From contig NZ_KK211036.1 of the NCBI RefSeq assembly GCF_000619825.1, positions 553,787 to 617,786 of the forward strand: a stretch of DNA of 64,000 bases, read 5' to 3'. The position numbers were made by a program, and so were the translations under genes. Numbering within the stretch: the stretch's first letter is position 1; the number at the start of each line of letters is the position of its first letter. This document shows positions 35,862 through 57,195 of this stretch, piece by piece. The notes beneath the pieces were generated by a model that was not told the DNA's origin, made no database searches, and saw only the letters and a program-made list of their open reading frames with translations. The DNA is from Prevotella sp. MA2016. Its GTDB lineage: Bacteria; Bacteroidota; Bacteroidia; Bacteroidales; Bacteroidaceae.

Positions 35862-37688
35862 TTAAGGCAACACCTCTACCACTGGATAGTTGGCGGGAAC
35901 GTGAGTGAACTTGAACTTAGTACGTTTGAAATCGGTTGTATATAAGTTATTAAGCTCAGCGTTCAGCTCACCAACTTTGCCTTTCAGCCAGCCTTCAGTA
36001 AACGATGTGATCTCGCTGGCGATGTAGCATCCCACAGCTTTATCACCTCCGTTGCCAATCAAAGTGCCGCCAGCTGTTTCGCCTACAATGATGTCGCCCG
36101 TGCAATAGCAGGCATGCACCGTGCCAGTGTTGGTGCCCACCAGAGCACCGCCATCGGTAGTAATATCATCCACCACACGGCAACCGCCTATGATGCCGGC
36201 ATTGATCACAGCCAGTGCCCCACCCCGGATGCTGCCCACGGTGGTAATCTGCAACTGCTCCACACAAGCCTGACTGCCCAAACAACCAAACAGTCCGCTA
36301 CCATTCAGACGGTTGATAAATCGGTCGCCCCCTAAGAACGTACCCTGGAAGGGTTTATCGCTGGTACCGATACCCTGCCACACATTACCAGTATCCGTAG
36401 TACTCTTCTGCATGGTGATATCAGCATCCAGACGGATAAACTTACCTTGGAAGGTCATCCCACCTTCGCTGACCTCCTTAGCCAGCGACAACAACTGCGC
36501 CGCCGACTTGATGACATAAGCATCAGCTTCTGTGCCGCCACTATGCCCATAGATATCCTTCACATCACTATCTGGTCCATACAACCACGTGGCATCGTCG
36601 ATGGTAAGCCCCGACTGATTATGAGTCGTCACATCCTTAATTTCCATCGTCATAAACGTAGACTTCTTGCGCAGCAGACCTAAGTCGGGCGTGGCTCGAT
36701 AGTTCCAATCATGATAGTCAACACCCAGATGCATCTGCTCGTTGCGGTGGTTCAGTATGATGGTCAGCGTGGTTTGCTGGCCCGAATGGAATTTCACCTT
36801 ACTAAACGTACCCTTATAGGTTTTGGTGAGCATCTTATCAGGCTGTGTGGCATCGGGATATTTCACCGTAAACGAGAATGGCACATCGCCTGTATAGGGC
36901 GTGGTGATGCCATAAAACGAGAAGCCGTTTTGATAGAGTTTGATCGTTTTATATATCTGATCAGAGGGTGCTATATCAAGATTAGTACCCTGGGCCGACC
37001 ACGTGAATCTGGCGGGCTGATGGCTGATAACCATATTGCTCACCTCCACTTTTTTATCCAACTCTCCGGCTATAAAGTCGGTGGTGTTTACCACCACGCA
37101 CACATTGCTCAGCGCATGGGCAAAACGCACCTTGGTAGAGAGTCCGCCCGTCTCGGCCTTGGTGTTGAGATTATAGCACAGCAACAAGTCTTCGGCAGCC
37201 ATCGCTGCAGTGCCTTTGGTATAATCCACTTCAGTGCTATTTGTTCCCCCCAGCTCGCCAGCATAACTACCATCAGGCTGCACGAAGTTATAAGTAGCAA
37301 CTGGCAGACTATAGCCCACAAAAGTGTGGGCCGAGCTACCGTCAGACCAGTATATCTTATCAGGTCCATTATCGCAGCGCACCCATTTTGAGCCATCATT
37401 CTGATAGCTGATACCGCTATAGGTAAAAGCCGTCAAAGGCGTAGTGGTGCGACGGATGGTAGTAAACACAATCTTATCGTCTTTGACAAACTCCTTGCGA
37501 CCTACCACAACGCTGGCAGCCGAACCCTCGGCAGCAGCACGGGTGAGGGCTGCGGGCTCCTCGCCATCTACAGCCACCTGGATGCCACGTATCTCTAACT
37601 GAGCATCGGGCACTGGCGTTTCATCGTTAGCACTACAAGCCGAGAGCAGGGCCACGGCCAAGAGGAGAAATAGGTTGTTATGCTTCAT
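35862..37688 (-). CDS. Fimbrillin-like lipoprotein with C-terminal GLUG/beta-helix-like domain (tip candidate)
   Basis: 608 residues; lipobox ends at Cys18 (LLSAC). The Thr-Arg motif ALTRA has Arg50. A fimbrillin domain (about 60-340) holds the conserved AHALSNVCVVV strand. After a linker, residues about 390-580 form a repetitive region (WQGIGTSDKPFQGTFLGGDR, LFGCLGSQACVEQLQI, ALVGTNTGTVHACY, TLIGNGGDKAVGCY) of GLUG style, expected to fold as a beta-helix and typical of adhesin tips. Last gene of the operon, with its start overlapping the previous stop by 11 bases. Confidence 0.8.
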   Translation of the reverse strand: MKHNNLFLLLAVALLSACSANDETPVPDAQLEIRGIQVAVDGEEPAALTRAAAEGSAASVVVGRKEFVKDDKIVFTTIRRTTTPLTAFTYSGISYQNDGSKWVRCDNGPDKIYWSDGSSAHTFVGYSLPVATYNFVQPDGSYAGELGGTNSTEVDYTKGTAAMAAEDLLLCYNLNTKAETGGLSTKVRFAHALSNVCVVVNTTDFIAGELDKKVEVSNMVISHQPARFTWSAQGTNLDIAPSDQIYKTIKLYQNGFSFYGITTPYTGDVPFSFTVKYPDATQPDKMLTKTYKGTFSKVKFHSGQQTTLTIILNHRNEQMHLGVDYHDWNYRATPDLGLLRKKSTFMTMEIKDVTTHNQSGLTIDDATWLYGPDSDVKDIYGHSGGTEADAYVIKSAAQLLSLAKEVSEGGMTFQGKFIRLDADITMQKSTTDTGNVWQGIGTSDKPFQGTFLGGDRFINRLNGSGLFGCLGSQACVEQLQITTVGSIRGGALAVINAGIIGGCRVVDDITTDGGALVGTNTGTVHACYCTGDIIVGETAGGTLIGNGGDKAVGCYIASEITSFTEGWLKGKVGELNAELNNLYTTDFKRTKFKFTHVPANYPVVEVLP

Positions 37689-38739
37689 TCTGCTTACTAA
37701 TCTTCATCGTTACTGAATAGAGTTGTCCGGCATCAAACTGCGTCTGACTGAGCTGCATCTTATAGCGCTTGTTGCCATCGCGCAGCCACAGGGTGGCATT
37801 ATGATTGAGTGCGCATGGTGGCACAATCAGGCGATAGCTCTGACTGCCTGCCTCATGATAGGCGGTATAGGTACTGAGCTTATCCACGGGGATAGGCTCG
37901 CAGGTGGCACTGTTAGCTCCAATCTTAGCCACGCCAACCACCACACCATTCTGATGCTTTTCCGAAACGGCATTCTTGTTCTTATACCCAAAGCCAGTGA
38001 TGTTCACCTTGCTCTTTCCGGCATAGTAGTCGCCCACTATCACCTCGGCCTGATCGATGTCGGGCATACCTTCGAGGGTGAGCACGGCATCTTCAGAGAT
38101 GGAGATGCCATCAGCAGGCGACAGTTTTATCATGAGTGCTGCCATCACGTGCTTGAAACTCAGGTGCACATTATACGAACCTGTCTGCTGGATGGTCTGT
38201 GCCCACATCACGTCGCTGGCCTTATAATGAGCCTCCTTGTGCTGGTCGGCATGAAACACGTTACTGTACTGCTCTATTCGGGCACCAGAACCTGTGATAT
38301 ATATCTGCTCCTCGCTCCAAGTCTGAGCGGTAAACACGTATGGTGTGGGCTGCGCCAGATAGCGCTGAAACACGTCGGGACCATTGGATGGTTTATAGTC
38401 GCCATCGATATCGAACCCGTCATCCGAAACCACTTTCACCCATGAGCTTGTGGTAGCATCCCACTTCAACAGCCAGAAACCATCGAAGCTGGCACTATAG
38501 GTACTCTCGCCAAACTCGGTGACCGACGACTGCGGACAGATAATCTTGAGTTTGATCAAATCACCTTTCTCAAAGGCATCGCCCTTGATATTGGTACGCG
38601 TGAGCGCACGACCCACGAAATTATCTACCGACGTGCTGAACGCCAGTGTGCCAGTCGGTTGCTGCGTGGGCTGCGGCTCATCAGCCTGGCAGCCCACTAA
38701 CAGCATGGCAATAGAGAAAAAGTAATTTTTATATTTCAT
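37678..38739 (-). CDS. Fimbrillin-like lipoprotein, single domain
   Basis: 353 residues; lipobox LLVGC (Cys17); ALTRT with Arg48. The fimbrillin domain fills the rest, with KHVMAALMIKLSPADG as the conserved central strand and a C-terminal LYSVTMKISKQ strand typical of type V pilins. No extra tip domain. It sits between two tip-like pilins, so it may be an adaptor or minor pilin; role inferred from position. Confidence 0.78.
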   Translation of the reverse strand: MKYKNYFFSIAMLLVGCQADEPQPTQQPTGTLAFSTSVDNFVGRALTRTNIKGDAFEKGDLIKLKIICPQSSVTEFGESTYSASFDGFWLLKWDATTSSWVKVVSDDGFDIDGDYKPSNGPDVFQRYLAQPTPYVFTAQTWSEEQIYITGSGARIEQYSNVFHADQHKEAHYKASDVMWAQTIQQTGSYNVHLSFKHVMAALMIKLSPADGISISEDAVLTLEGMPDIDQAEVIVGDYYAGKSKVNITGFGYKNKNAVSEKHQNGVVVGVAKIGANSATCEPIPVDKLSTYTAYHEAGSQSYRLIVPPCALNHNATLWLRDGNKRYKMQLSQTQFDAGQLYSVTMKISKQNEA

Positions 38740-38763
38740 TCTTCAACTTTTCAACTCTTCAAT
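38740..38763. repeat. Octamer repeat spanning a gene junction in the fimbrillin operon
   Basis: Three 8-bp units (TCTTCAAC, TTTTCAAC, TCTTCAAT) run from the start codon at 38739 into the last four codons and stop codon of the upstream gene. Confidence 0.55.
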
Positions 38764-41207
38764 TCTGGATATCGGTTTGCAAAGCCTTCGCTTTTCATCT
38801 CATACTTCATCTGACAGGGAACCAGCTTGCCAATGGCAGATGTGTTATACGCTTCGATGCCCTGGTTCATCGCTTTCCAGGGAGCTATGCCATACATCTC
38901 GCTGAGCTGAGTGGCAGAGAGCTTCTTCTTGTCAACCTCAGGGTTGATCATATAGTCGTTCTTTGCCTTGAGCACATGCGACTTGGCTCCACGCACATAC
39001 AGATCGTAATCGTAGGTGGCAGCAGAACCGCCCACGGCAACAGCACCTGGCGAGAGCTCGGTATCATAATAGTTGTACTTAAAGCCGTTCTTGGCTGTAG
39101 TGCCTGAGCCTAACAGCGCACCTGCATCTTTAGCGATGCCAGCAGCTGCCTGCATGCAACCTATCATAGTGAGATTGCTAGCCGAACCTACCAGAGCTCC
39201 TGTAGCTTCGCCCACATGGATGCAGCCCACCACATGACTGGTGCCATTCAGCTTGGTGGCAATGGCGTTCTTACTGCTGGGGCAACGCATAGAAATGCCT
39301 GCGATACGACAGCCCCAATTAGAAGATGACTTACTGGCTGAAGCTTCGCGGAGCAGATTCACATCGTGGGTGCTCTCTATCTGCAGATTGCTGATGGCGC
39401 CATCCATCACATAGTGGAACAGATAGCCATCAGGCAGATAAACATGACTGAGCTTATGGCCCTGACCATTAAACTGTCCGCGGAAGGGATAATCCTTCTG
39501 GGTAGCCACGCCGGGCAACTGCCAATCCACAAGGTCGAGATCGGCAGCAAGTTTCACCATAAATCGGTTGCCCGAAATCTCATCATAGAAATTGTAAGGG
39601 CCATCCACGCACATCTCCTCGGCATAGGCACCATTGGTAGATACACTCTTATGGAAGATGGGATAGAACTTATAGCCCATATTCTGCGCCTCGGTACGGG
39701 TGTATTTGCGGAGCTCACCGTTCTCATCCTTATCACCCTCGATGGTCCACCAGTAGCTGTTGATGCCATCGATGGTTATAGTCTTTCCATCCTCATCCTT
39801 ACGCAATTCGCCACGGGTAATCTTGGGCAGATTCAGGGCCGTACCATTACACAGGCGCATGAAGGTAACAAACTGTGCAGGCGTCGTGAGCAGAAACTCG
39901 GGATTGAATGTCACACTATTATCCTGCATCGACTTCTCAATAGCAGCTTGGAAGCCATCTATCCACCACTGGAAGTCGAGTTCGGCATCGGCTCGGGTAT
40001 CATCGTCGGCAGAGGTCTCGGCCAACGGGTGTTCCGTCCAGGCGAAACTGTCGGCAGCGGTGATGGTGAGGCTGTCGTACTGATAACCCACACTGAAGCT
40101 ATAGCTATAGCCTGGGCGCAGGGTGATACCATCCTTAAAGGGGTTATTGCCCTGCTTATTCTTAATCTCGCTCAGCGTGGCATAGTGAAACTTATCGCCA
40201 CCATCGCCACGCAGATACACACGGAAACGAGTGCAGGCGGGCAGCACCAGACTGCTACCGGCACTCTCCTTACTCATATCAACAGGAATGGCCATGAGAT
40301 ACTGGCAACCGTTGTTATTGCGGAACGAAGGATGCTGCACAGTTTTGCGGATGGAAGCAGAATCAAGCTTACCATACTTAACCACACCTTCTGTGTTAGC
40401 CTCCAACGCATTGAGATCTGCGGAGTTCTGATACAGATCCTGCGTCATCGCTGTGAGCAGGAAGGTCGAATCATCCACACCGGCTGGCACGCACATCTTA
40501 TTAAATACAGCCATCACGTCGGCGTAATCTTTTTCTAGAACGTAATCGCTGCTATTGGTACAAAGCTCCACCTTGCTGAACTCATTGCCAGGCTTGCAGG
40601 TCAAGGCAATACGACAAGCAATGTGGCGCATGGTGAGGGGGATATTCTGCGTGGGACCTGATACGGTAACCCAGTCGCTCACGGTAAAGTCGGGATAGAA
40701 GCTACTGCGGATGGCATCTGGAGTAGTGCCCGACATGCAGCCCGACAGATTGCTGCGGCCCCAGGCACGGAAACGCACGGTGCGACCGTTCTCCCACGTA
40801 AGCGAATCGGCAGCAGTCTGAACTATAGGGGTGCTGCCTGGGGCATCCGACTTGAGTCTGCCGGCTTTCGGCAACCAGTCGGAACCTAGCGACAGCGAGT
40901 TGCCTGCAGCATAGTTCACCTTACGATAATAGGTGCGGAAGATTTCGCCATCGGCATCAAACTTGGTGATATCGTTATCAGTGGCATACTGGCGGAAGAT
41001 GCGCAACTCGTCGCCCTCATTAAATGAGCCATCGGCATTATAGGTGGTACGGGTGACAAACGGACTGGCCATAGTGGCACTGAAGTTAACCCCCTGCCCT
41101 ATCAACTCTTGCTGCTCGGGAGCCAACTGCCACAGCTCATCATCCGCACTACAAGCCATGAGTGCAACCCCCGCCACCAAATATATAATTCGCTTAATAT
41201 TCATCAT
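38751..41207 (-). CDS. Large fimbrillin-like lipoprotein with GLUG/beta-helix-like C-terminus (tip candidate)
   Basis: About 818 residues from the ATG at 41207 (an upstream in-frame TTG at 41210 is unlikely). Lipobox ALMAC (Cys19); FVTRT with Arg53. Fimbrillin part about 40-430, with MRHIACRIALTCKPGNEF as the conserved strand. Residues about 560-780 carry YPFRGQFNGQGHKLSHVYLP, IAGISMRCPSSKNAIA, GEATGALVGSASNLTMIGCM and DAGALLGSGT, GLUG-like repeats. The latter suggest a surface adhesin. Members of the same operon show the same two-part design. Confidence 0.8.
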   Translation of the reverse strand: MMNIKRIIYLVAGVALMACSADDELWQLAPEQQELIGQGVNFSATMASPFVTRTTYNADGSFNEGDELRIFRQYATDNDITKFDADGEIFRTYYRKVNYAAGNSLSLGSDWLPKAGRLKSDAPGSTPIVQTAADSLTWENGRTVRFRAWGRSNLSGCMSGTTPDAIRSSFYPDFTVSDWVTVSGPTQNIPLTMRHIACRIALTCKPGNEFSKVELCTNSSDYVLEKDYADVMAVFNKMCVPAGVDDSTFLLTAMTQDLYQNSADLNALEANTEGVVKYGKLDSASIRKTVQHPSFRNNNGCQYLMAIPVDMSKESAGSSLVLPACTRFRVYLRGDGGDKFHYATLSEIKNKQGNNPFKDGITLRPGYSYSFSVGYQYDSLTITAADSFAWTEHPLAETSADDDTRADAELDFQWWIDGFQAAIEKSMQDNSVTFNPEFLLTTPAQFVTFMRLCNGTALNLPKITRGELRKDEDGKTITIDGINSYWWTIEGDKDENGELRKYTRTEAQNMGYKFYPIFHKSVSTNGAYAEEMCVDGPYNFYDEISGNRFMVKLAADLDLVDWQLPGVATQKDYPFRGQFNGQGHKLSHVYLPDGYLFHYVMDGAISNLQIESTHDVNLLREASASKSSSNWGCRIAGISMRCPSSKNAIATKLNGTSHVVGCIHVGEATGALVGSASNLTMIGCMQAAAGIAKDAGALLGSGTTAKNGFKYNYYDTELSPGAVAVGGSAATYDYDLYVRGAKSHVLKAKNDYMINPEVDKKKLSATQLSEMYGIAPWKAMNQGIEAYNTSAIGKLVPCQMKYEMKSEGFANRYPELKS

Positions 41208-41228
41208 CAATTGTCAATTATCAATTAC
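41208..41228. repeat. Heptamer repeat before a fimbrillin gene
   Basis: Three 7-bp units (CAATTGT, CAATTAT, CAATTAC) exactly fill the gap between one stop and the next ATG. Confidence 0.6.
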
Positions 41229-42643
41229 TAGTAGGTCGGTATTTCTGGCATGTGAACCACCTTGCCGCTGGCATCTTCGCAATTCTCTACATGACCTGTA
41301 AGCTGGTCGTTAGATACCTGGAACAGGCGTCCGCCCGCTATCTTGGTGTTCACCACTTCGGCCTGCCAACCGCTACCAATGCTGCTGAAGAGCCAGTTGC
41401 GCTCTGCTTTAACGTTTTTCAGCGTGATGGTATGGTCGAGGGCATCCAGATGACCAGTAAACACAAAGTTGGCAGGGAACTGGTTTACATCAATCTCGAT
41501 ATCAGAATGCAGAATGAAATAGCTACCGTGGAGATTGCCATTAGTCGTAGCCTGCTTCAGCTTATTAATCCATTCGGCTGTAGATATATACTGATGTCCC
41601 TGATACGTCTCACCATCCTTATTGGCATACTCAACATTATCATTGGTGAAAGCGCGCTGCCAACTGCTGCCTGCTTTTGAGAGAGCATGACCGCCAGGAT
41701 TATCCACACCATAATAGTCGTCGCTACCAGCCACCTCTTTCCACAGGCGCGAACCGGCACTGGTATAGTCGATGCGCTCTGGGGTTACACGCAGATAAAC
41801 CACCGTCTCGTTGTTGGCATTCAGGTCGAACTTGAAATGCTTCTCATACTCCAGTCCATTGGCCAACTTGAGTTCAAAATCGATGGCGTTCTCAAAATTC
41901 TCGCCAGCGGCTTCTGTGGGATCTGGTTCATCATACATCACCGAGTCCTTATGGGTGTAGGTAGGGCGCACTATGAGGTCGTAGCAGGGTGCCTCAGTAA
42001 AGCCTTTGGCCTGCTCTACGTTCTCTTCTATCTTTTGTACACCAAGATAATTAGGCGTAACCTTACGCGCCTTCTGCCACACAGGTTGGCCATTGGCCAC
42101 ATTCTTCAATGTCTGCACATTGCAGAAGTGCAACTCACTGATTTCAGTTTGCATCGAGGTGTCTATCAGCACATAGGCCATCACACGGGCCAGACGGTGC
42201 TGCAGGGGGATGGTGATGCTACCCACAGTGGCGGCAATCTTGGTGGCAGGCGGTGTGGCAGTATAATGACTCAGGTCGGCATAAGTATGCTCCCCTTCAG
42301 TCTTCAAGCCATCGGGCACATAGGCACCCTCGAAGATATGGGCACCATTGCCCAACCACTTGGCGGGCTCTCCTTCGGCAGTCAAACTATAGTTGCCGGC
42401 ATCTTCCAGCTTCAGCTTCACCTGCTGCTTTGTGGCATCGCCAGTCTGATAATAACTCAGGTTCAAGCCTTGCTTCAAAGCTTCACTCAACCACCCCATG
42501 CCCTCATCGGTAGCGGCAGCACGCGTCACACCACCCACATGGATGATGCTAGCACTATCCTCGACAGTGGCAACCTGCTCGTCGTGCGTGCAAGCCGTCA
42601 CCATCGCAAAGCCCATCAGTAAATATTTATATGTTACTTTCAT
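41228..42643 (-). CDS. Fimbrillin-like lipoprotein with short beta-helix-like C-terminus
   Basis: About 471 residues from the ATG at 42643; an upstream TTG at 42694 would overlap the previous gene and bury the signal peptide. Lipobox MVTAC (Cys18); GVTRA with Arg41. Conserved strand LQHRLARVMAYVLIDTS in the fimbrillin domain. The C-terminal 120 residues (FVFTGHLDALDHTITLKNVK, NWLFSSIGSGWQAEVVNTKI) look like the first turns of a GLUG/beta-helix domain, shorter than in its neighbours. Possible minor tip subunit. Confidence 0.76.
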   Translation of the reverse strand: MKVTYKYLLMGFAMVTACTHDEQVATVEDSASIIHVGGVTRAAATDEGMGWLSEALKQGLNLSYYQTGDATKQQVKLKLEDAGNYSLTAEGEPAKWLGNGAHIFEGAYVPDGLKTEGEHTYADLSHYTATPPATKIAATVGSITIPLQHRLARVMAYVLIDTSMQTEISELHFCNVQTLKNVANGQPVWQKARKVTPNYLGVQKIEENVEQAKGFTEAPCYDLIVRPTYTHKDSVMYDEPDPTEAAGENFENAIDFELKLANGLEYEKHFKFDLNANNETVVYLRVTPERIDYTSAGSRLWKEVAGSDDYYGVDNPGGHALSKAGSSWQRAFTNDNVEYANKDGETYQGHQYISTAEWINKLKQATTNGNLHGSYFILHSDIEIDVNQFPANFVFTGHLDALDHTITLKNVKAERNWLFSSIGSGWQAEVVNTKIAGGRLFQVSNDQLTGHVENCEDASGKVVHMPEIPTY

Positions 42644-42659: not shown

Positions 42660-45218
42660 TTACTCCCTCGGAGTAACTCCGTTTCTCTTACCAATCACGG
42701 CATCCTGAGAAGAGCCCTGATATTTAGCCACACCCTTGGCGGGCTTGCCATCCAGATTGTTTGGCCACCAGTTACCCTGGCAGTCCTTAGTAGCATTCTC
42801 ACCATTCTCCAGCATCGCATAGCCTAAGATACCACCATGATAAGCATCCTCGGGATCGATAATATAGCTGCTGCAGAAACTGGTGCAGTCGGTAATCGTA
42901 ACCTGGGGCGCTTCACCACTCCATGAAGATACACCACCCACGATACCACCATAATAGATGATTTTGGCACTCATGATATCTGGAGATAGTTTGAGATAGC
43001 TGCTTTTATGGAACACGCACTGCGAGATGGTGGCCAAAGAAGCGGTTGACACGATGCCACCGGCATACTTCAACTCGTTTGATACTTCATCTGGCTTTGA
43101 TACCCACGCACGGATATCGGCAGTAACTTCGCAACGGTTCACCTTGGCGCCACCAGCTGCCCAAACCACCAAACCTGCTGGGTTTGAGGCCTGGATATAA
43201 GTATTGGGAGCCATCGTCACCTGGATATCGCTCAACTCGGCCTGAGAGCCAGCCACAGCGTAAGCCAGTGGGGCCATATGGTCCTTGTCACCATTAATAT
43301 TCTTAGCAATCAGACTTTTGTTGACATGCACCTTCAAATCATGCACACTGCCCGAAATTGTATAGAAGATACGGGCTGAGGTGGCTATCTGTTTGCCATT
43401 GCCATCCAAATCGTATTTAATTTCGCCAGGAATAGTATCTGTTAGGCTGATATCCTTGGCCAGACGATAACGATTGCCTGCAGCGTTATGTCCGCTGCTA
43501 GCAGAAAGCAAGAGTTCTGCGTTGCTATCGATGATACCCGTATAGCGGTTGGCAGTAACATTCTTCATGCTCAGGTCGTCGGCAACTGTGGGCCAGGCAT
43601 TGCCATCGGCAGAAAGACTACCCTGGGCTGCGCCTACGATATTCTTATGCGTTGCGGGATTCTGCGACAGGGTGATACCGTACTCGAAAGTGTTGTTGAT
43701 TACAGAGCCATTGGCCAGACCAACAATACCGCCACCAGCATTGCCGCCCTTCACGCTGTTGGTAACCAGACAGCCATCGATAAGGGCCTGCTTCTCGGTG
43801 GAAGAGAGCGACTGGGCAGCGATACCACCTACGTATAGTGTGCCATCAGCACCATTAACAGCTAAGGCCGACTGACACTTGGCTATCACACCGCCATTTT
43901 TTTTCACCAAGCCCGCCACAGTGGCGTGAGCATCCTGATCGGCGGCTTCCACCTTCACATCCTCTATCGTACCACCGTTGGTATCGGCAATGGCAGCATC
44001 CACAGTGCCAGCAATCTTCACCGTACCATTCTGCAAGTTGCCTGTGCTGGCAATACTTTTCAGGAAGCGCTCACTGCCCGTAAGCGTCCAACCGCCCAAG
44101 TTAAGCGTACTCTTCAGATCGGATGTTGATGCCCAAGAAGTCAGAGTGATATCGTTGACCACCATTGCCACATTGCCTGGCTTGTTCTGTTTTTCGTCGG
44201 CAAGGAAGTTATACAACTCATCGCGCGTCGTAATATATATTGGATCACCCGCATTGCCATAGTCGTCGCAGATAGTGGTGTAAACATCCTCAGTCCAGTC
44301 CTCTATATAGGCCGTCATGTACACCTCGCGACTGTTGCGGCCCAGCGTCACGGTGATAGTGAGATGCTGTCCGGCCTGCAGATTGTAGCGCTCGGGACTT
44401 GTCTTATAAGCCGCATCATTGGTGGCAGAGAACGAGTAGTTCTGGCCTGAAAGACTAATCTTGGTAATGAGTTCTGATTCAGCATTCGAGCGATAGTCGT
44501 GCGGCTCTACGATGGCGTCATAGCGGGTGGTACTATCCTCATCGTTCCAGATGCCAGTGGCCAGCGGGTTGATGGCAAGCTGCTCAACACCATTAGCACC
44601 ATCTGTATACGAATAGATATGGGTGGTGATATCCCTTTGGGCAGCAGAATAGCGAAGTGCCTTAGCACTCACACCCTCGCCTGCCTTCAGAATGATGGTG
44701 ATGAGCGCACGCTTGTGATTCATCGTCAGCGGAATAACCTTATCCGAATATAATCCTTTCCATTCCTGAGCACTATAGCATGTTTCTCCACTGCCGCCTT
44801 CCAAGCGGTCTTGTTGCAACCACTGTGTTTTGGTGCTCTGATCGGGGTTCAGCGTTTCGGATCCTGCATGAGCCCTGAAGCCATACCGCACCGTTGTGCT
44901 GTGCCAATAGAGAGGTTTCACAGCTTTTAACTCTCCACCTTCCTCGCCAACGGTGTAGGTGCCGTCAGCGCCTTCTTGTGCGCCATCCACTTTATACATG
45001 CCAATGGTGAACGTGTAGCCCTCGCTCAGCGCCTCAGTAGAGGCAGCACGCGTCAGACCTCTCATCTGCATCTCAGCCGAGAAACTTATCTCGTCGCCCG
45101 CTTCTATATCACCAGCCAGCAACTGCTGGATGGTCTCACGGCAACCAGTCAGTCCGCACACCATGCAGACAGCCAGCAGCCATTGCCAAAGTATTGATAT
45201 ATGATGATTACTATTCAT
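42660..45218 (-). CDS. Largest fimbrillin-like lipoprotein, long beta-helix-like C-terminus (tip candidate)
   Basis: 852 residues; signal peptide to Cys26 (GLTGC); GLTRA with Arg57. Fimbrillin domain about 45-320, with MNHKRALITIILKAGEGV as the conserved strand. About 330-850 is a long repetitive beta-rich region (LNLGGWTLTGSERFLKS, TNGGTIEDVKVEAADQDAH, GGGIVGLANGSVINNTFEYG, GGIVGGVSSWSGEAPQVTI), expected as a right-handed beta-helix. It ends with a Trp/Asn-rich tail (CQGNWWPNNLDGKPAKG). The size and form fit a distal adhesin. Confidence 0.8.
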   Translation of the reverse strand: MNSNHHISILWQWLLAVCMVCGLTGCRETIQQLLAGDIEAGDEISFSAEMQMRGLTRAASTEALSEGYTFTIGMYKVDGAQEGADGTYTVGEEGGELKAVKPLYWHSTTVRYGFRAHAGSETLNPDQSTKTQWLQQDRLEGGSGETCYSAQEWKGLYSDKVIPLTMNHKRALITIILKAGEGVSAKALRYSAAQRDITTHIYSYTDGANGVEQLAINPLATGIWNDEDSTTRYDAIVEPHDYRSNAESELITKISLSGQNYSFSATNDAAYKTSPERYNLQAGQHLTITVTLGRNSREVYMTAYIEDWTEDVYTTICDDYGNAGDPIYITTRDELYNFLADEKQNKPGNVAMVVNDITLTSWASTSDLKSTLNLGGWTLTGSERFLKSIASTGNLQNGTVKIAGTVDAAIADTNGGTIEDVKVEAADQDAHATVAGLVKKNGGVIAKCQSALAVNGADGTLYVGGIAAQSLSSTEKQALIDGCLVTNSVKGGNAGGGIVGLANGSVINNTFEYGITLSQNPATHKNIVGAAQGSLSADGNAWPTVADDLSMKNVTANRYTGIIDSNAELLLSASSGHNAAGNRYRLAKDISLTDTIPGEIKYDLDGNGKQIATSARIFYTISGSVHDLKVHVNKSLIAKNINGDKDHMAPLAYAVAGSQAELSDIQVTMAPNTYIQASNPAGLVVWAAGGAKVNRCEVTADIRAWVSKPDEVSNELKYAGGIVSTASLATISQCVFHKSSYLKLSPDIMSAKIIYYGGIVGGVSSWSGEAPQVTITDCTSFCSSYIIDPEDAYHGGILGYAMLENGENATKDCQGNWWPNNLDGKPAKGVAKYQGSSQDAVIGKRNGVTPRE

Positions 45219-45227
45219 TATTTGGTG

Positions 45228-46295
45228 CTAATTATTAACTGTGGTATCAATCGTGCCATCCGTTTTATACTCAGTCTTATCTTCAGTCCATGGGGTGATT
45301 TCTGCTTTCACCTGAGCTATCAGACTGCGGCGCAACTCGATATTATAGATGTATTTCTTGCCACTCTGTAAGTTCTTATGCGCATCGTCGAGACCTTGGT
45401 AGGTGGCCACATGCTGCAAAGATGAACCTTCCTCAGATTCGTGCCAGGTGATGCGGATGCCTAACAATCGACCGAAGGCTATACCCTCGAACGACTTAAG
45501 ATAACCAGTAGGAGCCGTATCACGCAAAAACAACTCGAAGGCATTATTCAAAGGGGCTGGCTCAAAACTGGCAGCAGGCACTGTGCCATCAGGAGTTATG
45601 TCGTAAGTAACATATCCCCTATTAGTTACGCCTATCAACTCCACTTTCTCTATATGCTCTTTCTGAATGTTTGCCGACTCATTTTGTGAGCCCTTCAGAT
45701 TGACCTGTATCTGCGAAAACTGGTGGTGAAAGAAGAGGCTGACGCGGTTGGCCTCGCTGGTTGCACCAACAGGACTCATCGTGGTGACGGCCAGTAGCGG
45801 GTCGGGCTGCTCGGCCATCGAATTCTTGCTACCACGAGTCAGGTCGAAGGCCACTTTCTCGCCTACTTTGAAATTGGGCATAGAAGTGAGCTGGTTGTTA
45901 TCCGTTAATGCCAGGAACACATGGTTCAGACGGTTCTGCCAATAGAAGGTGCTATCCTTCTGCTGATAAGCAGCATTGCCATAGTCATTATCCACCTTCA
46001 TAAGGGCCGATGACATGTTGACATCCCTAACAAGCGGATTGGCATCTGAATAGTACTTCGAATCATTATTATCACTAGCACCTGCGTGAAAGAACATGGC
46101 GCAGGCGAACTGGCTGTTTTGGGGCATATAGGATGCCGAGGCTGCTCGGGTGAGCGCCCTATTCACATTGCCAGCCGAAAAGAGTACGGGCATCAGTCCT
46201 TTAGACTGCTGTCCATCGTCGTACGCTTCCTGCTCAGCAGAACAACCTGCCAATAGCAATGCCACGATTAAATATATGTTATAACAAAATTTCAC
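45228..46295 (-). CDS. Fimbrillin-like lipoprotein, single domain
   Basis: 355 residues from a GTG start; no ATG precedes the signal peptide. Lipobox LLAGC (Cys18); ALTRA with Arg50. Conserved strand FHHQFSQIQVNLKGSQ. C-terminal KKYIYNIELRRSLIAQVKAE followed by WTEDKTEYK matches the last strands of type V pilins. Likely a structural or adaptor pilin. Its 5' end is preceded by a four-unit 7-bp repeat. Confidence 0.78.
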   Translation of the reverse strand: MKFCYNIYLIVALLLAGCSAEQEAYDDGQQSKGLMPVLFSAGNVNRALTRAASASYMPQNSQFACAMFFHAGASDNNDSKYYSDANPLVRDVNMSSALMKVDNDYGNAAYQQKDSTFYWQNRLNHVFLALTDNNQLTSMPNFKVGEKVAFDLTRGSKNSMAEQPDPLLAVTTMSPVGATSEANRVSLFFHHQFSQIQVNLKGSQNESANIQKEHIEKVELIGVTNRGYVTYDITPDGTVPAASFEPAPLNNAFELFLRDTAPTGYLKSFEGIAFGRLLGIRITWHESEEGSSLQHVATYQGLDDAHKNLQSGKKYIYNIELRRSLIAQVKAEITPWTEDKTEYKTDGTIDTTVNN

Positions 46296-50199: not shown

Positions 50200-52350
50200 T
50201 TAATCTTCAAGAGAAATATTCTTGTTATCTGCTGTTACGTCAGTCCATCCCTCAACGGTACAGGTAATCTTATCGATACCAGCCTTCTTCAGTGTAAAGG
50301 TATAGGTATAGGTGTGACCGGGGAACCAACGTTTGATGGCTGAACCCTGAGTCTGACTCTTAACGTTGCTTACTGTCGAGGCTGTAATCTCGCTCAGCTT
50401 CTTAACGATATAATACTGGTTGTTATCTGCTGTAACAATCGTGATGCCAACATAATCATCATCTGTTGCATTCGTTGTAGCACGTACGAGAGCCTGAGGA
50501 ACAATAGCATAGGTAAACTCTGTACCCTCATTATTACCTGTCATCTCCTGCTGTGCGGTTACATTACCAGTAGGTGTCACAAGACCTGTACCCATCAGCA
50601 CATTACCTGTAGTATGAAGCTTAGTGATGTAAACTTTAGCACCAGCAAGGGTTACCTTGTCATTGCCATCAGTTGTCTGAAGCTTAACGGTGATATTACT
50701 CATCATGTGCTGGTCGGTGATATTAATCTTAGCATTAGTAGCACCAATAGCACTTGAAAGACAATCAGTATAACCATTAGTTACATTATATACGGGCTCA
50801 TTGGTCATAGGAGCACCCCAGTGAGGATCTGTAGAGGCTACTGGGCCTGCTTCAATTATAAAGTAGTCTGCTACACTATTATCTGTATCACTTGTACCCT
50901 CAATAGTTATACCTTCATTTACCGTACGGAAGTGATAGTAAGCCTTATTGCTTTCGAAATACCAGTTGGTGCTCCAACTACCATCTGTGTTCTCTGCCAA
51001 GGTAGCAGCATCGGTATAATTGCCATTCCATTTCTTGCCTACATAAGTGTCGGTGATCTCATCACTTTCATCCAAGACACGATAAAGAGTGAAATCAGTG
51101 CTCTTCTTACCAGAATTTGAATCATAAATACCATCCAAAGTGATACGAGCATTAGAAGGTGTAAACTCTTCTGCATTAACGTCAGACCATGGCTGTACAA
51201 CTGCTGTTACATTGATAATATTGGTCTTCTTAACTGTAATAGTGAAGTTATAGTTCAGCCCCTGCTCCATTGTTACCTCACTAGCATCCTTCTTTGTCAT
51301 ACCTGTAGCATCCTTCAAAGCATCGTACATCTGCTGCTGAGTGATGAAATACTGGTTATCATCGATGGTAAAGGTGAGCATGTTTGTTGTTGATGTAGCG
51401 CTGATTACGTAATCAGGCAGAATCTGTGCCATCAACGTATAAACTGCACCTGTTGCAGCTTTCTGTTTTTGATACATCGAAACTATATCACCAAGAGATC
51501 GGTTAGACCATGTACCATTAGTCAGGTCCAAATCACCAGAAACGGGTACATTCAGAATCTTAACGCTAGTTCCATTGGTAAACTCAAACGCACCAGTAGT
51601 TGGATATCCATCGCCCTTTTTCAGGTTCACAGTGATGCGGCTCAAAGCATGATTAAACATCAGATGTCCCTTATCAAACTTACCAGGGCCATCTGTCTCT
51701 GTAGCAGTCTGAAGGCGGAACTGCATTCTACCATCAGAAAGACTGGTGTTATCGTTTGGATATTTATTCTGAGTAAAGTCATACTGATATACGCCACCAG
51801 TACCACCGTCTTTAATATTATTACTGTAAGTAAGGTCTTCATCATCAAGAGTGGTTGATGTCTGAGTAGTAGAAATCTTCCAGCTTATCTTCTCATTCTC
51901 AGTAGTCTCAGTAAACCATGTATCTGTTCCTGCAGTCAATTTCTCCTCTAAAGACTTTTCGTCGTTTTTAATATCGTCTTTGTTGGGTACTGCAATAGCA
52001 AAAACAGACAGATTAGCTGCACGTCCGTAGGCATCATCCCAGTAACGCACGTAAGCGCCATCTACTGTAATTGAAGAATAATCTTTGCCCGATGCGGCTG
52101 CTGCAGTAGCTACCGTACGAGTATAGCGGTTAGCCTTGCCTGTAGCTTCACTCTTAATGCGCATAGCGATTTTTGTGATGTCAGTAAAACCAGCACGAGT
52201 CAATGCTCTACGTTGTTCTTCTACTGAAAACGAAATGGCGGTTTTGCCATTGGGATCGACGGGGGTGTCGAAGTCGGTTTCATTTGTGCTGGTACATGCG
52301 GTGGCCACGAATGCAGTGGCAAAGACTAGTGGATAAAGTAGATTCTTCAT
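50200..52350 (-). CDS. Tandem-domain fimbrillin-like lipoprotein
   Basis: About 716 residues from the ATG at 52350; a TTG four codons earlier is the only other start. Lipobox VATAC (Cys19); ALTRA with Arg52. Two fimbrillin domains, with FNHALSRITVNLKKGDGY and DQHMMSNITVKLQTTDGN, and both ending in VQPWSDVNAEE- or VEGWTDVTAD-type strands. Thr-rich, as is usual for these pilins. A stalk component is the likely role. Confidence 0.8.
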   Translation of the reverse strand: MKNLLYPLVFATAFVATACTSTNETDFDTPVDPNGKTAISFSVEEQRRALTRAGFTDITKIAMRIKSEATGKANRYTRTVATAAAASGKDYSSITVDGAYVRYWDDAYGRAANLSVFAIAVPNKDDIKNDEKSLEEKLTAGTDTWFTETTENEKISWKISTTQTSTTLDDEDLTYSNNIKDGGTGGVYQYDFTQNKYPNDNTSLSDGRMQFRLQTATETDGPGKFDKGHLMFNHALSRITVNLKKGDGYPTTGAFEFTNGTSVKILNVPVSGDLDLTNGTWSNRSLGDIVSMYQKQKAATGAVYTLMAQILPDYVISATSTTNMLTFTIDDNQYFITQQQMYDALKDATGMTKKDASEVTMEQGLNYNFTITVKKTNIINVTAVVQPWSDVNAEEFTPSNARITLDGIYDSNSGKKSTDFTLYRVLDESDEITDTYVGKKWNGNYTDAATLAENTDGSWSTNWYFESNKAYYHFRTVNEGITIEGTSDTDNSVADYFIIEAGPVASTDPHWGAPMTNEPVYNVTNGYTDCLSSAIGATNAKINITDQHMMSNITVKLQTTDGNDKVTLAGAKVYITKLHTTGNVLMGTGLVTPTGNVTAQQEMTGNNEGTEFTYAIVPQALVRATTNATDDDYVGITIVTADNNQYYIVKKLSEITASTVSNVKSQTQGSAIKRWFPGHTYTYTFTLKKAGIDKITCTVEGWTDVTADNKNISLED

Positions 52351-52391
52351 TTTGATTTTCAATTCTTTCTTTAAGTATTATTTCTTATGAT

Positions 52392-53549
52392 TTATTTTTC
52401 AAGATTGGTATCGATATTAGCGCCTTCTACATCTGTCCATGGGGACAACTGGGCACTAAACTCGATGGTAAGCGGACTGAGGTCGCTAATGTTAATATAA
52501 TAGGTGTATATATTGTTCGGCGCCCAATCGAAGGAACTATCTCCGTTTTTTACAACGATAGGAATATCGCTATAAGGGGTGCTGTTGATGTCGAACGATA
52601 TCATCAGCTTAACACCCTTCTGAGGTATCTGCAGCAGACCTTTATCGTTGTCGCTTCCATCACTACCTGCAAAATAAGCATGATCCTTATCGGTGGCCGT
52701 GATCAAATCTTTAGTATGAGCTTTATCTGTTTGAAGCAGAAGCTTATCGGCATCGGTTGATGCTTTTGTCTGTTCTGTAAACTCACCATTAAATATGTCA
52801 GCAGTGGAGGCAGTATAGCCTTTTGCAGCTATTACGAAATTGTCTGAAACGACTTTAACCTTGACATTGGAAAGGTTGAAGTTGCTTGACGCAAGCTGCG
52901 TATTACTGCTATATATACCAAAGCGCACCTTCGACATGATATGGCGGAAAGGCAAAGCCACACGGTCAGCCGTAGAGTAAGAAGCCGCTGCCACATAGTA
53001 GGGCTCTTTCACATCGTCGCGTGTTTCATTATTGCAGGTTTGATAATAAAAGGGTTCTGAGATGACTAACTGATCTTTTGATAATTCAAAATTCTTGATG
53101 TTACCATGCGCTGGGCAGGGACTGATGGCATAGAACTGATAAGGGAAAGCAGACTGGTCCCAATAGCGCTGCACCTGGTCTTGCCAGAAGCCATCTGGCG
53201 TATCGCCCTTTTTACCTACATAGCCCCAACTTGACTGATTCTCCCATTGATCTGTTCTATATTTCACCTCGTATCTGTCCATCACCGTAAGCTTGCTGCT
53301 ACCCTTAAAGCAGCTTACGAGAAAGCCTTGCGCTAAAGTTTTAGAACCTTGCCCTTCAGCGCGAGTGGCGGCAGCGCGAGTGAGAGGTACATCAACCGCA
53401 GCCTGACCAAACTGCATAGGAATCTGCTCCAGAGGATCCTCAACCTCATGGACAGTTGTATCAGAAGAACATGCCAAAAGGCTGGCGCACAAAAGTGCGC
53501 CAACCATCCAGCATGATATAGAGTTTAAACGATTAAATATTTGTATCAC
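52392..53549 (-). CDS. Fimbrillin-like lipoprotein, single domain
   Basis: About 385 residues from a GTG at 53549, overlapping the upstream stop by 17 bases. This start keeps an Arg in the n-region of the signal peptide; a later ATG (53507) would give a short, uncharged one. Lipobox LLAC (Cys27). PLTRA (Arg58) is followed five residues later by ATRAE (Arg63), a doubled cut-site motif. Conserved strand FRHIMSKVRFGIYSSN. Second pilin-like gene of the operon, likely a shaft subunit. Confidence 0.76.
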   Translation of the reverse strand: MIQIFNRLNSISCWMVGALLCASLLACSSDTTVHEVEDPLEQIPMQFGQAAVDVPLTRAAATRAEGQGSKTLAQGFLVSCFKGSSKLTVMDRYEVKYRTDQWENQSSWGYVGKKGDTPDGFWQDQVQRYWDQSAFPYQFYAISPCPAHGNIKNFELSKDQLVISEPFYYQTCNNETRDDVKEPYYVAAASYSTADRVALPFRHIMSKVRFGIYSSNTQLASSNFNLSNVKVKVVSDNFVIAAKGYTASTADIFNGEFTEQTKASTDADKLLLQTDKAHTKDLITATDKDHAYFAGSDGSDNDKGLLQIPQKGVKLMISFDINSTPYSDIPIVVKNGDSSFDWAPNNIYTYYINISDLSPLTIEFSAQLSPWTDVEGANIDTNLEK

Positions 53550-54597
53550 TTGGATCAAGAGTTGCTGCTTCGTAATCTACGATAGTAGGAGTATCAAATA
53601 CAATAGGACTAAGAGCCGTATCTGTAATTGTGAAATTATAAGTGTAAGCCGTGTTTGACTTCCACTCTAACTGATTAGCTGGAATAGTCACTGTAGCATC
53701 ATTAACTACAATCTCCTCTTTATTATCATCAGCAATCAGCTTGTAAGACACGTGGAGAGTGAAAGTGTTAGTTGCCTTCTCTGGCTGAATTACTGCATAG
53801 TATGTAGTTGACGATGCTTTATATGTAGCATCGGCCCCCTCAGGAAGGTTTCCGGAAAAGATATCAAACTCCAAATTATCTGGAGAAGAACCTGCTGTAG
53901 ATGTATTAACAGTAGGTTTATCTGGATTGTCATAATTGATTGTTACACTCGCTGTAGTATTATATGTTCCAGTAGGTTCAAGCACAACACCTTTACCTGA
54001 TTCAACATTAAGAAGCTGAACTTTATAACCATCGATATTCTCACGGAAGGCAATATTTACCTTTGCACCAACGTGCTTGAACGTAAGGGGCACTTTTTTA
54101 CCATAACCATTTTTCTTATCTACTGATTTACCAGCATAGATTACATCATTTTTAGCCTCGTAACCTGCAGTTGAAGAAACGGTGATAGTTTTGTTTTTTT
54201 CATCAAACTTTGTTCCAGAAACATAAGGTGCATAAGCATAGAAGTTTGTGCTATCAGTAGAATAATCCCAATAACGGGTAACCTGACCTTCAACTTTACC
54301 TACATAATCCCAACTTGCTGGAGTCTCTCCTGCTGCAGCTGTATGAGCAACTTTGTAGTTATCCATTACCAGCTCTGGAGTTGCACCTTCACCGCTCTTT
54401 ACCTTATAGGCAAATACTCCGAAATCCTCGTAACCATTCTCGTTAAGGTCATCTACCGCACGGGTGATGTTACGCTGGCCTACGTTGAAGGCGATGGGGG
54501 CCTCGTTGGTTACAGGCGAATCGCCTACGAGCGAATCGCTGCTACAGCTGGCAAGGGCCAAGACTGCTACTGCACAAAATAAATTTGTTTTCATCAT
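53533..54597 (-). CDS. Fimbrillin-like lipoprotein, single domain (first pilin of the operon)
   Basis: 354 residues; lipobox ALASC (Cys18); NITRA with Arg46. A single fimbrillin domain with FKHVGAKVNIAFRENIDG as the conserved strand, and VTIPANQLEWKSNTAYTYNF near the C-terminus. Compact size (about 35 kDa) and first place among the pilins suggest a major shaft subunit, in the manner of FimA/Mfa1-type genes. 28 bases separate it from the DUF5119 gene. Confidence 0.8.
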   Translation of the reverse strand: MMKTNLFCAVAVLALASCSSDSLVGDSPVTNEAPIAFNVGQRNITRAVDDLNENGYEDFGVFAYKVKSGEGATPELVMDNYKVAHTAAAGETPASWDYVGKVEGQVTRYWDYSTDSTNFYAYAPYVSGTKFDEKNKTITVSSTAGYEAKNDVIYAGKSVDKKNGYGKKVPLTFKHVGAKVNIAFRENIDGYKVQLLNVESGKGVVLEPTGTYNTTASVTINYDNPDKPTVNTSTAGSSPDNLEFDIFSGNLPEGADATYKASSTTYYAVIQPEKATNTFTLHVSYKLIADDNKEEIVVNDATVTIPANQLEWKSNTAYTYNFTITDTALSPIVFDTPTIVDYEAATLDPSDTNI

Positions 54598-54625
54598 TTG
54601 TTTTTGTTTTGTTAATATAAAGGTA

Positions 54626-55792
54626 TCAAATATCTATTTCCCATTGTACTTCATCATAATCCTCGATCGTGGGGATGAACAAACTGCCACCTCCATCGCC
54701 ACTCTGCTCGGGCGGCGTGAGCTTGGAGCAATCAATCTTCACAGTGATAATACCGCCATGAGACTGAGCTTGCAACTGACTGGTGACATCGGCCTGATAA
54801 GTGACGGTCTCACCATTGTTCCAAACCATATCGTAATAGATGATGTTATTAAGCGACGCACGGTTGCCCCTGTAGTCAGAGCCCGAACGCTGGTAAGGCT
54901 CGTTGTCGCAGAGTCCGAATGTGGTGAGCTTTCCGCCAAACACATCGCAACGCTGACCATCAACCATGATGTCGGGCTTCATACGGGTGTTGAAATATAC
55001 CAACGTGGGGCGGCTGCTGGTATGACCGGTGTTGATATTGGTGCTGGCAGCCATCGACGAGATGGCAGCATTGCCGTTGACTCCCTTGATGCGGTGGTCG
55101 TCATTATTGTAAAGAATGAACTGCACCAGGTAGATATACACCAGAGGCTGCAACTGAGCCTCGATATGCTTGATATACACATTCTCTACAGGGTCGTAGT
55201 CGTAATCTTTCAAATCTGAAGATATATACACATTCTCAGAATAAGCTCCATAGAAAATCTCTGGCTGATTGAGAATGCCAATAGGTGCATCGCCATTATC
55301 ACTGCTTGCACGGCTGGCCTCGACGATACTGCGCGAGATGCCTCGGGTGCCCGTGGTGGTGGCGATAACAGAGTCGCCTTCTTCCTTAATTACCAAAACC
55401 TGCGTGCCGTCCTTAGAGTCGATATTACTGTAGAACAGCATATCGTAATAACCAAACTGGAAGTAACGACGGAAGCGGTTGGTGTCGATGGTGAACATAT
55501 CCACATCGGTGTGTGGCGCCAAGGGATTATCACCTTTATAATAACGATAAACTTCGTAGCTGCTGGGATGAGGATAGGCAATGCCGCCCCAGATGGAGTC
55601 GTCCTTCAAATCCCAACCATAAACCCACTCGTGCTCTAACTGCACCTCGTGGTCCCAAATAAGCTCTAACTCTGTTTGTGCCACCTGCAGATCAACGGCC
55701 AACTCCTGACCGGGCAGATGCAAGGGGGGCTCAATGCATGATACGAAGCCCAGCATGGTGGCTATTATATATATAAGGTGTAAACGTTTCAT
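54626..55792 (-). CDS. DUF5119 lipoprotein of a fimbrillin operon
   Basis: 388 residues; lipobox GFVSC (Cys19). The DUF5119 pattern LHLPGQELAVDLQVAQTELE and ELIWDHEVQLEHEW is followed by beta-rich segments. This family is repeatedly found between DUF3575 proteins and fimbrillins in Bacteroidales. It lacks the Thr-Arg pilin motif, so it is probably an assembly or anchoring factor, not a shaft protein. Its start overlaps the DUF3575 stop by four bases (ATGA). Confidence 0.8.
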   Translation of the reverse strand: MKRLHLIYIIATMLGFVSCIEPPLHLPGQELAVDLQVAQTELELIWDHEVQLEHEWVYGWDLKDDSIWGGIAYPHPSSYEVYRYYKGDNPLAPHTDVDMFTIDTNRFRRYFQFGYYDMLFYSNIDSKDGTQVLVIKEEGDSVIATTTGTRGISRSIVEASRASSDNGDAPIGILNQPEIFYGAYSENVYISSDLKDYDYDPVENVYIKHIEAQLQPLVYIYLVQFILYNNDDHRIKGVNGNAAISSMAASTNINTGHTSSRPTLVYFNTRMKPDIMVDGQRCDVFGGKLTTFGLCDNEPYQRSGSDYRGNRASLNNIIYYDMVWNNGETVTYQADVTSQLQAQSHGGIITVKIDCSKLTPPEQSGDGGGSLFIPTIEDYDEVQWEIDI

Positions 55793-57195
55793 CGGGCGGC
55801 CTCCTTTCGCTGCTTGCGGTAAATAATATCATAGGTGATGTGCAAACCGGCATTGGTGGGGCCGAACCAGAGGAACTGGTGGTTGCGCTTCTTAAAGTCG
55901 CTCACATTGCCATGATAGTCGTAATAGTATTTGCCATCTATCTTGCCACTATTGCCCCACACATAGGGATCGTAACGGGTGATGAACATGCCGAAATTGG
56001 CTGTCAGCTCCAAGCGCAGATTGCCTCGCTTGGTGAGATTCCAGCTGTGACCCAAGCCGATGCCAGCACCTCCACCCTCGCCTTCCCAGCCTTTGGACTC
56101 GCTAAAGCCGATGCCATACATCATGCCCTGCAGATAGGCATCTACGAAGGTACCGATGAACTGGCCCTGCCCCTTGAAATAGCGGCGAAGCTCTAACTGC
56201 ACATCACGAATCTGGAAGAACTTATGCGTATCCCAATGGCGATGATTGTGGAACGTGAATCCGGCATTAAACGTGTAGTGGCCCGACAGCGGATAGTACT
56301 CCAGCTGGATATTGCCTCCTGGCGCGAAACCAAACTGGGGCACATACAGGAAATCGTGCAGCAGATTGGTGCGAATGGCTATCAGGTGGCGGCGCGAACG
56401 TGGCTGAACAGCAGTGGTATCGGTCACAGACAGTGGCAGATACGCATCCAGACCTGGCACCTTGAGCATATCGGTAGTTGACATGAGGTTGCACTTGGGG
56501 AGTGGCATGTGCTCAGGATTAACCATATACCAGAGCACCATGCGACTTTGGCGCAGCGTGGGGAAATACGTCTTCAGCAGGCGCTTCCAAGTGGTGCCGC
56601 CATTCAGCGCCATCAGCTTGGATTTGCACAGGCGCTCATCACCCCCGCAGGCATCCCAGATGGCCTTCACTTGATGGTATTCGGCATCGCCGGCCAGCTG
56701 CATCAGTCTCACCAGATAAGCATAGTCTTCAGTTACAAACTTCGAGTTGATAGGCTGATGAGCAATGGTCTGATCGAGGTTGCTACTCAGGAAATCAATC
56801 AAGCGATAGGTGCGACGACGACTCAACCATACGTTGTTGTCGTAAGGACCTTCGGGCGAAGCGGCTCCCTTCACAAACACCTCACGCAGAATGAGATTGT
56901 GCTTCTTGAGCCAGGGAACAAGACTGTCGTTATAAAGCGAGACAAATGGATCAGACGAAGGAATCTCAGTACGATTGACCTGGAATCTGACACCATGCGC
57001 TATCTCATCAAACAGCGAATCGGTGATCAGTGGCGGTGTGGTAACGATGGAGTCGGAAACAAAGACAAAGGGGTATTTGGGCAGTTGCCTATAGAGCGAC
57101 GCATCAGGCTTCTGAGCCAACACAGATGTTTGGGCCAGAAGTACGAATAAAACACACCAAAAGTGTTTCAGTAGACTTTTGTTTATTCGTTGCAC
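55789..57195 (-). CDS. OmpA-like plus DUF3575 outer membrane protein, first gene of the fimbrillin operon
   Basis: 468 residues from a GTG start; no ATG precedes the signal peptide (cleaved near VLAQ, 28). Residues about 60-140 (VRFQVNRTEIPSSDPFVSLY, GAASPEGPYDNNVWLSRRR) resemble the OmpA C-terminal peptidoglycan-binding domain placed near the N-terminus. The last 190 residues (RTNLLHDFLYVPQFGFAPGG, ELRRYFKGQGQFIGTFVDAY) are the DUF3575 barrel. Such proteins often head fimbrillin operons and may anchor the fibre or form the assembly site; that role is inferred from gene context. The only clear promoter of the operon lies upstream. Confidence 0.82.
   Translation of the reverse strand: MQRINKSLLKHFWCVLFVLLAQTSVLAQKPDASLYRQLPKYPFVFVSDSIVTTPPLITDSLFDEIAHGVRFQVNRTEIPSSDPFVSLYNDSLVPWLKKHNLILREVFVKGAASPEGPYDNNVWLSRRRTYRLIDFLSSNLDQTIAHQPINSKFVTEDYAYLVRLMQLAGDAEYHQVKAIWDACGGDERLCKSKLMALNGGTTWKRLLKTYFPTLRQSRMVLWYMVNPEHMPLPKCNLMSTTDMLKVPGLDAYLPLSVTDTTAVQPRSRRHLIAIRTNLLHDFLYVPQFGFAPGGNIQLEYYPLSGHYTFNAGFTFHNHRHWDTHKFFQIRDVQLELRRYFKGQGQFIGTFVDAYLQGMMYGIGFSESKGWEGEGGGAGIGLGHSWNLTKRGNLRLELTANFGMFITRYDPYVWGNSGKIDGKYYYDYHGNVSDFKKRNHQFLWFGPTNAGLHITYDIIYRKQRKEAAR

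Follow-up and report, generated by a model that had tools for sequence, protein, structure and literature searches.

A window of 64,000 nucleotides (nt) from the rumen-type Prevotella sp. MA2016 (contig NZ_KK211036.1) carries at positions 35862-57195 thirteen open reading frames (ORFs), all on the minus strand, flanked by atpG on one side and by a 2-oxoacid:ferredoxin oxidoreductase operon on the other. Numbered g1 to g13 in the order of transcription, they begin with a DUF3575 and a DUF5119 gene and continue with eleven further lipoprotein genes, most of which encode fimbrillin domains. Together they probably form one operon that encodes a fimbria of type V (FimA/Mfa1 class) and works by the route proposed below. 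Its genes and the promoter-like motifs around it are listed here; fimbrillin scores refer to the Pfam profile Mfa_like_1 (PF13149), with a cut-off of 27 bits.

57243..57272, minus strand: promoter-like -33/-7 motif TTG-N19-TACCTTTG, ahead of g1 and downstream of the atpG terminator hairpin.
55789..57195, minus strand: g1, outer-membrane-type protein with DUF3575 (Pfam 52.2 bits); starts at GTG and has an OmpA-like ASPEG stretch in its N-terminal region.
54626..55792, minus strand: g2, DUF5119 lipoprotein, candidate anchor; processing motif absent.
53533..54597, minus strand: g3, single-domain fimbrillin, candidate major shaft subunit; Pfam 85.9 bits, model and fold search.
52392..53558, minus strand: g4, single-domain fimbrillin; Pfam 52.2 bits; exact start uncertain, TTG at 53558.
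50200..52350, minus strand: g5, tandem two-domain fimbrillin; ATG at 52350; Pfam in two stretches, 100.2 bits.
48094..50190, minus strand: g6, tandem two-domain fimbrillin; Pfam in two stretches, 98.1 bits.
46325..48076, minus strand: g7, tandem two-domain fimbrillin; ATG at 48076; Pfam in two stretches, 157.1 bits.
45228..46295, minus strand: g8, single-domain fimbrillin; GTG start; Pfam 51.3 bits; Mfa2 at 16.7 bits, below cut-off.
42660..45218, minus strand: g9, fimbrillin with a GLUG-like C-terminal part of ~530 residues, tip-like; Pfam 49.7 bits.
41228..42643, minus strand: g10, lipoprotein with processing motif and C-terminal extension, probable divergent fimbrillin; ATG at 42643; no Pfam match.
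38751..41207, minus strand: g11, lipoprotein with processing motif and a GLUG-like C-terminal part of ~420 residues; fimbrillin 17.9 bits, cut-off 27.
37678..38739, minus strand: g12, single-domain fimbrillin, Mfa4-like candidate for a terminal or adaptor subunit; Pfam 55.8 bits; ends at the last core strand.
35862..37688, minus strand: g13, fimbrillin with a GLUG-like C-terminal part of ~270 residues, tip-like; Pfam 52.4 bits.
35773..35802, minus strand: promoter-like motif of the 2-oxoacid:ferredoxin oxidoreductase operon, marking the end of the fimbrial unit.

The original prediction, made by reading the DNA without database searches, described a co-directional run of thirteen genes with gaps of at most 41 nt behind one leading promoter, and both descriptions are borne out, the promoter in the form of a promoter-like motif. 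With the most plausible starts (for g4, g5, g7, g10 and g11 the raw ORF list gives starts that are uncertain or lie too far upstream), intergenic distances range from -14 to 41 nt, and the pairs g1/g2, g3/g4 and g12/g13 overlap. The motif ahead of g1 (57272-57243) is of the Bacteroidetes -33/-7 type (TTG...TAnnTTTG), lies just past the hairpin that terminates the ATP synthase genes and is the only intergenic one; the next operon has its own at 35802-35773. Similar promoter-like motifs precede g1 in three relatives. Internal promoters dividing the run into independent units, an outcome that the prediction had named as contrary to it, were rejected after a motif scan: the one full internal -33/-7 match (41210-41178, spacing 22) overlaps the start of g11, and about 0.9 are expected by chance per whole stretch. 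Because a lone intergenic motif stands in front, the internal match is at chance level and the following operon has a motif of its own, these signals support, without proving, a single transcription unit starting from the g1 motif. Searches of the operon found no inverted repeats of at least 20 nt, no long internal repeats and no invertible repeats or recombinase, and Rfam and PADLOC searches gave no match.

The PF13149 cut-off is passed by nine of the eleven lipoproteins (g3-g9, g12 and g13), which together hold twelve domains, two each in g5, g6 and g7; no other PF13149 locus was found in the whole genome. The single- and tandem-domain forms foreseen from the DNA are therefore both present, the tandem ones being g5, g6 and g7 by Pfam. 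The predicted total of fourteen fimbrillin domains holds for the twelve secured by the profile but not for g11, which is sub-threshold, or g10, which is unmatched. Likewise, all of the eleven proteins called fimbrillin-like lipoproteins have a lipobox, but g10 and g11 fall below the detection cut-off for the domain. Since they share the lipobox and the processing motif with the other subunits, g10 and g11 are probably divergent subunits. The placement of DUF3575 and DUF5119 at the start of the operon was correct, with matches of 52 bits for g1 and 24.7 bits for g2. The latter lies just under its 27-bit cut-off and is the sole match shared by 16/16 orthologues. DUF3575 is found in 9/9 orthologues of g1, two of which also give weak OmpA matches, and the g1 (DUF3575) and DUF5119 genes are paired in relatives. 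Profile-profile comparison did not link g10N, g11N or g2 to other subunits, and profile searches of g1, g2, g9, g10, g11 and g13 against PDB sequences yielded nothing convincing.

The N-terminal signals of the subunits resemble those of known prepilins. A lipobox is present in all of g2-g13 in the window and in nearly all orthologues. A processing site of the pattern T/S-R-(A/T/S/G/V), sought 23-45 residues past the lipobox Cys in g2-g13 from 13 genomes, occurs in 127/136 g3-g13 sequences compared with 15% of shuffled ones and covers all 11 families; several sequences lack the strict pattern and have T-K instead. The DUF5119 proteins (g2) have it in 0/13 cases. In P. gingivalis, Rgp cleaves the lipoprotein precursors of Mfa1 (at Arg49), Mfa3 (Arg43) and Mfa4 (Arg54) but has no site in the anchor Mfa2 (PMC5789003). 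The position of the T/S-R site thus matches the protease site of type V prepilins, and cleavage is predicted here. Its presence in all 11 families and absence from g2 make most sense as a processing step that would free each subunit from its lipid.

The C-termini fall into comparable classes. In g4-g8 a conserved Trp is followed by a conserved tail of ~11-19 residues, and in g3 a variable Pro-rich linker leads to a conserved YPIVFDGAT strand in which Tyr replaces the Trp. By contrast, g12 ends abruptly at the last core strand without any Trp-plus-tail extension, and g9, g10, g11 and g13 carry long C-terminal additions. In shaft subunits of P. gingivalis a conserved Trp precedes an extended C-terminus, and polymerisation depends on its last six residues; Mfa3 extends ~100 residues past its Trp, with ~105 extra C-terminal residues in all, and the final strand of Mfa4 is integrated (PMC5789003). 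The additions of g9, g11 and g13 contain GLUG-like motifs (about 1 per protein versus 0.01-0.03 in shuffles), g11C and g13C are alike by profile similarity, and Pfam Glug matches 2/12 g9 orthologues weakly. This suggests, without proving, a β-helix in these three C-terminal parts. The β-helix-tipped forms of the original prediction are retained to that extent, but no C-terminal part of g9, g11 or g13 reaches a gathering-level match to PF07581 (Glug), and the addition of g10 has no GLUG-like motif.

A structure prediction for g3 (AlphaFold2 with 13 orthologues, followed by a fold search against solved structures) returned a fimbrial fold rather than an unrelated one. The predicted local distance difference test (pLDDT) score is about 85 across the core, and the pro-region is disordered. 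The best match is BVU_2522 (4qb7; Z 15.0 over 253 residues at 4.6 Å), followed by BACUNI_00621 (4k4k, 12.5), FimA (4q98, 9.2), Mfa3 (9.1), the prepilin 6jzk (8.8) and Mfa1 (5nf3, 8.0), the lower matches, such as Mfa1, being near the Z level of chance matches. Foldseek agrees with the fold search, and the first 22 rows of the latter are Bacteroidetes fimbrial or putative cell adhesion proteins throughout. The two-domain β-sandwich fimbrillin fold is assigned to g3 by this model and to g4-g9, g12 and g13 by PF13149; g7 also matches 4k4k at the sequence level (E 1.7e-5).

A genome scan with g2 identified 15 close loci in rumen Prevotella and Xylanibacter, including P. ruminicola KHT3, X. ruminicola D31d, X. 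brevis and P. communis, and the gene-content comparison proposed with the original prediction shows that the operon recurs in 12 of them, essentially gene for gene and in identical order. P. communis (L057) has an extra tandem-domain g5-like gene inserted, giving 14 genes, and X. ruminicola D31d (L048) has one in place of g6; among the recovered operons, one assembly stops inside g13 and another has a split g5. The cross-species best hit is the positional orthologue in 1690/1692 cases, which argues that the subunits hold old, fixed roles and that their differentiation is older than these species. Mean identity to orthologues is 36% for g3 and 41% for g4, the fastest diverging members, 61% for g12, the best kept fimbrillin, and 69% for g2, the highest of all. 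An ATP synthase neighbour is common to three genomes, including the window, and differs in others, so the block has moved or been inherited as a unit. Among 398 congeners, DUF5119 of the g2 type occurs in 66, whereas no more than 16 have the g10 marker, in part by weak matches; congeners also possess other long arrays (16 matches in G024). With orthologous genes in one order in a dozen related species, the operon is, judged by its gene content, a fixed and unusually part-rich form of a fibre system already known, as opposed to an isolated accumulation of copies. Its supposed unusual size holds against the five-protein fimbriae of P. gingivalis (PMC5789003) but is the norm for its clade, in which 12 relatives have a matching operon, essentially gene for gene.

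More distant congeners follow the same DUF3575-DUF5119 start with a different set of genes: 1-3 fimbrillin-like lipoproteins (~600-700 residues), two shorter lipoproteins and a giant secreted protein. The giant proteins have 3.7-4.3 thousand residues and GGNVYGGGN-like starts (L013:7807-18960, with equivalents in position in G083, G067 C5, G022, G050 and G072), and in ~29 loci (counted by eye) the contig that carries DUF5119 also encodes a relative of them downstream of it. They have no Pfam or NCBIfam match; their tail resembles a sorting domain of the type IX secretion system (T9SS) by eye only, with no NCBIfam match for it. This arrangement fits a modular layout in which a conserved base and shaft carry an exchangeable distal part. 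The genomes with giant proteins also hold open frames of 4-8 thousand residues with weak similarity. In one congener (G024:C1:2376000-2415999; L026:1-20000 and L027:1-20000), ~17 mostly co-directional ORFs of 520-930 residues are spaced by ~57 nt. Three of these ORFs were tested and have a glycine-rich ALK_LTK_GRD C-terminal domain, two of them with a fimbrillin domain as well, and a tyrosine recombinase gene at the edge of the array makes a gene-shuffling locus possible there.

GC content at third codon positions (GC3) is 0.31-0.48 in g3-g7 versus about 0.54-0.62 across the remaining operon genes, and most relatives also have low GC3 in g3 or g5. A codon-adaptation proxy did not mark g3 as the most highly expressed gene. 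Elsewhere in the window, GC falls to 0.35 at 12001-14000, versus 0.41-0.53 in the rest.

Protease-mediated strand exchange is the published assembly mechanism of FimA (review PMC7616799). We infer a surface fibre built here in the same manner, together with the roles of the subunits and the protease. In this model, g3-g13 would be exported as lipoproteins to the outer surface, where an Arg-specific protease would cut each at the T-R site ~30 residues past the lipid Cys. The cut would release the first β-strand, and the strand of a neighbouring subunit would fill the open groove, so that subunits chain into a fibre. Without a cut site, g2 (DUF5119) would stay lipid-anchored at the base, and g1, with its DUF3575 and OmpA-like parts, may serve an outer-membrane step. 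The main shaft subunit would be g3, extended or linked by g4-g8, which have Trp-plus-tail C-termini as in shaft subunits and three of which are covalent two-domain units. The distal positions would go to g9-g13: g9, g10, g11 and g13 by their long C-terminal additions and g12 by its end at the last core strand, both being features of tip subunits. The subunits would thus have fixed, non-interchangeable roles, most simply as positions in or around one composite fibre.

That the locus encodes a FimA/Mfa-type surface fibre, as had been proposed from the DNA, is well supported by the Pfam matches, by the g3 fold and, in every one of the 11 subunit families, by a lipobox combined with an Arg site. 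The further suggestion of a complete system is plausible, since the locus has shaft-like subunits, tip-like subunits and a candidate for the anchor; on the other side stand the lack of a PF08842 match in that candidate and the nature of the only C25 peptidase. Several results weigh against the type V reading. No Pfam fimbrillin match was obtained for g10 in any of its 13 orthologues, and that of g11 stays at 17.9 bits against a cut-off of 27. The second domains of g5-g7 have no cut site, by eye. The C-terminal strand of g3 was considered as a copy of its own first strand, and this was rejected since the similarity is not above that of shuffles. For g2, no match was found to the Mfa2/FimB anchor family PF08842 or, by profile, to the PDB, and its AlphaFold model with 16 sequences has a mean pLDDT of 39, too poor for a fold search. 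DUF5119 is nevertheless the best anchor candidate on account of its lipobox, missing cut site and constant place in the operon. No gingipain was found in the genome, and a single C25 peptidase was, the T9SS sortase PorU. Rgp is an enzyme of P. gingivalis for which no requirement is known outside that genus, so its lack does not exclude type V membership. The best candidate for an Arg-specific maturation protease in the genome is a lipoprotein of the C11 clostripain family (L069:1369-2673; gene at G000:C4:329187-330350), the alternative being an enzyme of another kind.

The alternatives differ in whether the subunits meet in one fibre. Four proteins have long C-terminal additions, there is one distal end per chain, and congeners place a single secreted protein of 3.7-4.3 thousand residues after the same start, as if the distal part were replaceable. 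Several alternative fibres could then share a common base (g1, g2) and shaft and each end in one of the four tips (g9, g10, g11 or g13), giving a mixture that differs in tip and binding target. This is a real, though unlikely, possibility: every recovered operon keeps all four tip-like genes, known tip complexes (Mfa3-5) hold several proteins at once, and the operon has neither invertible repeats nor a recombinase. Phase inversion in particular is ruled against by the absence of inverted repeats, and one-to-one orthology together with that absence disfavours phase-variable alternatives and favours fixed roles.

It is also conceivable, if improbable, that no polymer forms and that the proteins are separate surface adhesins of fimbrillin fold, each displayed singly by its lipid anchor. 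The T/S-R site, found at the type V position in all 11 families and absent from g2, speaks against such display, as do the highly conserved shaft-type C-termini of g3-g8. In its favour, every subunit is a lipoprotein, a free shaft-like tail is missing from g12 and from the proteins with C-terminal extensions, and a gingipain is absent from the genome. A recent tandem expansion into interchangeable copies, for antigenic or phage-receptor variation, would account for the fast divergence of g3 and g4, for the lowest GC3 of the window operon falling in g3-g7 and for the extra g5-like copy in P. communis. It is very improbable given that 1690/1692 best hits are positional, so that differentiation predates the species, and that the operon has no long internal repeats. 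The type V fimbria with fixed subunit roles is accordingly preferred. Its most specific version is put forward tentatively and, taken in all its parts, is rather doubtful: eleven differentiated Arg-processed fimbrillins, each at a position of its own, would form a single composite fibre in fixed order, anchored by DUF5119 and matured by a non-gingipain protease, and its distal module would be replaceable, with one 4000-residue protein taking its place in sister species.

To our knowledge, nearly everything known about type V fimbriae comes from the five-protein systems of one oral pathogen. A type V fimbria at this locus would show that the assembly route can build far more complex fibres (13 genes, kept across rumen Prevotella), would supply a gingipain-free model in a non-pathogen for finding the maturation protease, and would make DUF5119 a second anchor type. 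It would also provide a way to test how the dominant bacteria of the rumen adhere to feed, to protozoa or to one another. A literature search found neither a comparably large conserved fimbrillin operon nor a rumen Prevotella fimbria of this kind described, and DUF5119 was named in none of the papers searched.

Among known systems, the Bacteroides fimbrillins BVU_2522 (4qb7) and BACUNI_00621 (4k4k) are the nearest solved folds to g3, but they are known as single structures. The Mfa1 fimbria of P. gingivalis (Mfa1-5, type V) shares lipoprotein subunits, an Arg site after the first strand and the two-domain fimbrillin fold (PMC5789003), as well as shaft-type C-terminal tails, an uncut anchor (a candidate here) and tip-like members with extra C-terminal parts. 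It comprises five proteins, in contrast to the 13 genes and 11 predicted processed subunit families found here, where three subunits have tandem domains, a DUF5119 anchor candidate replaces Mfa2, a DUF3575 gene leads the operon and no Rgp gingipain was found in the genome. The FimA fimbria of P. gingivalis (FimA-E) is likewise related through the matches of the g3 fold to FimA (4q98) and the prepilin 6jzk, and differs in its anchor FimB and its tip set FimC-E; the other contrasts are as for Mfa1. The fibre class is already known, and what is new here, on the best reading of the sequence, is the unusually large, ordered set of subunits predicted to be processed, of which three have two domains and four carry long extensions like those of tips.

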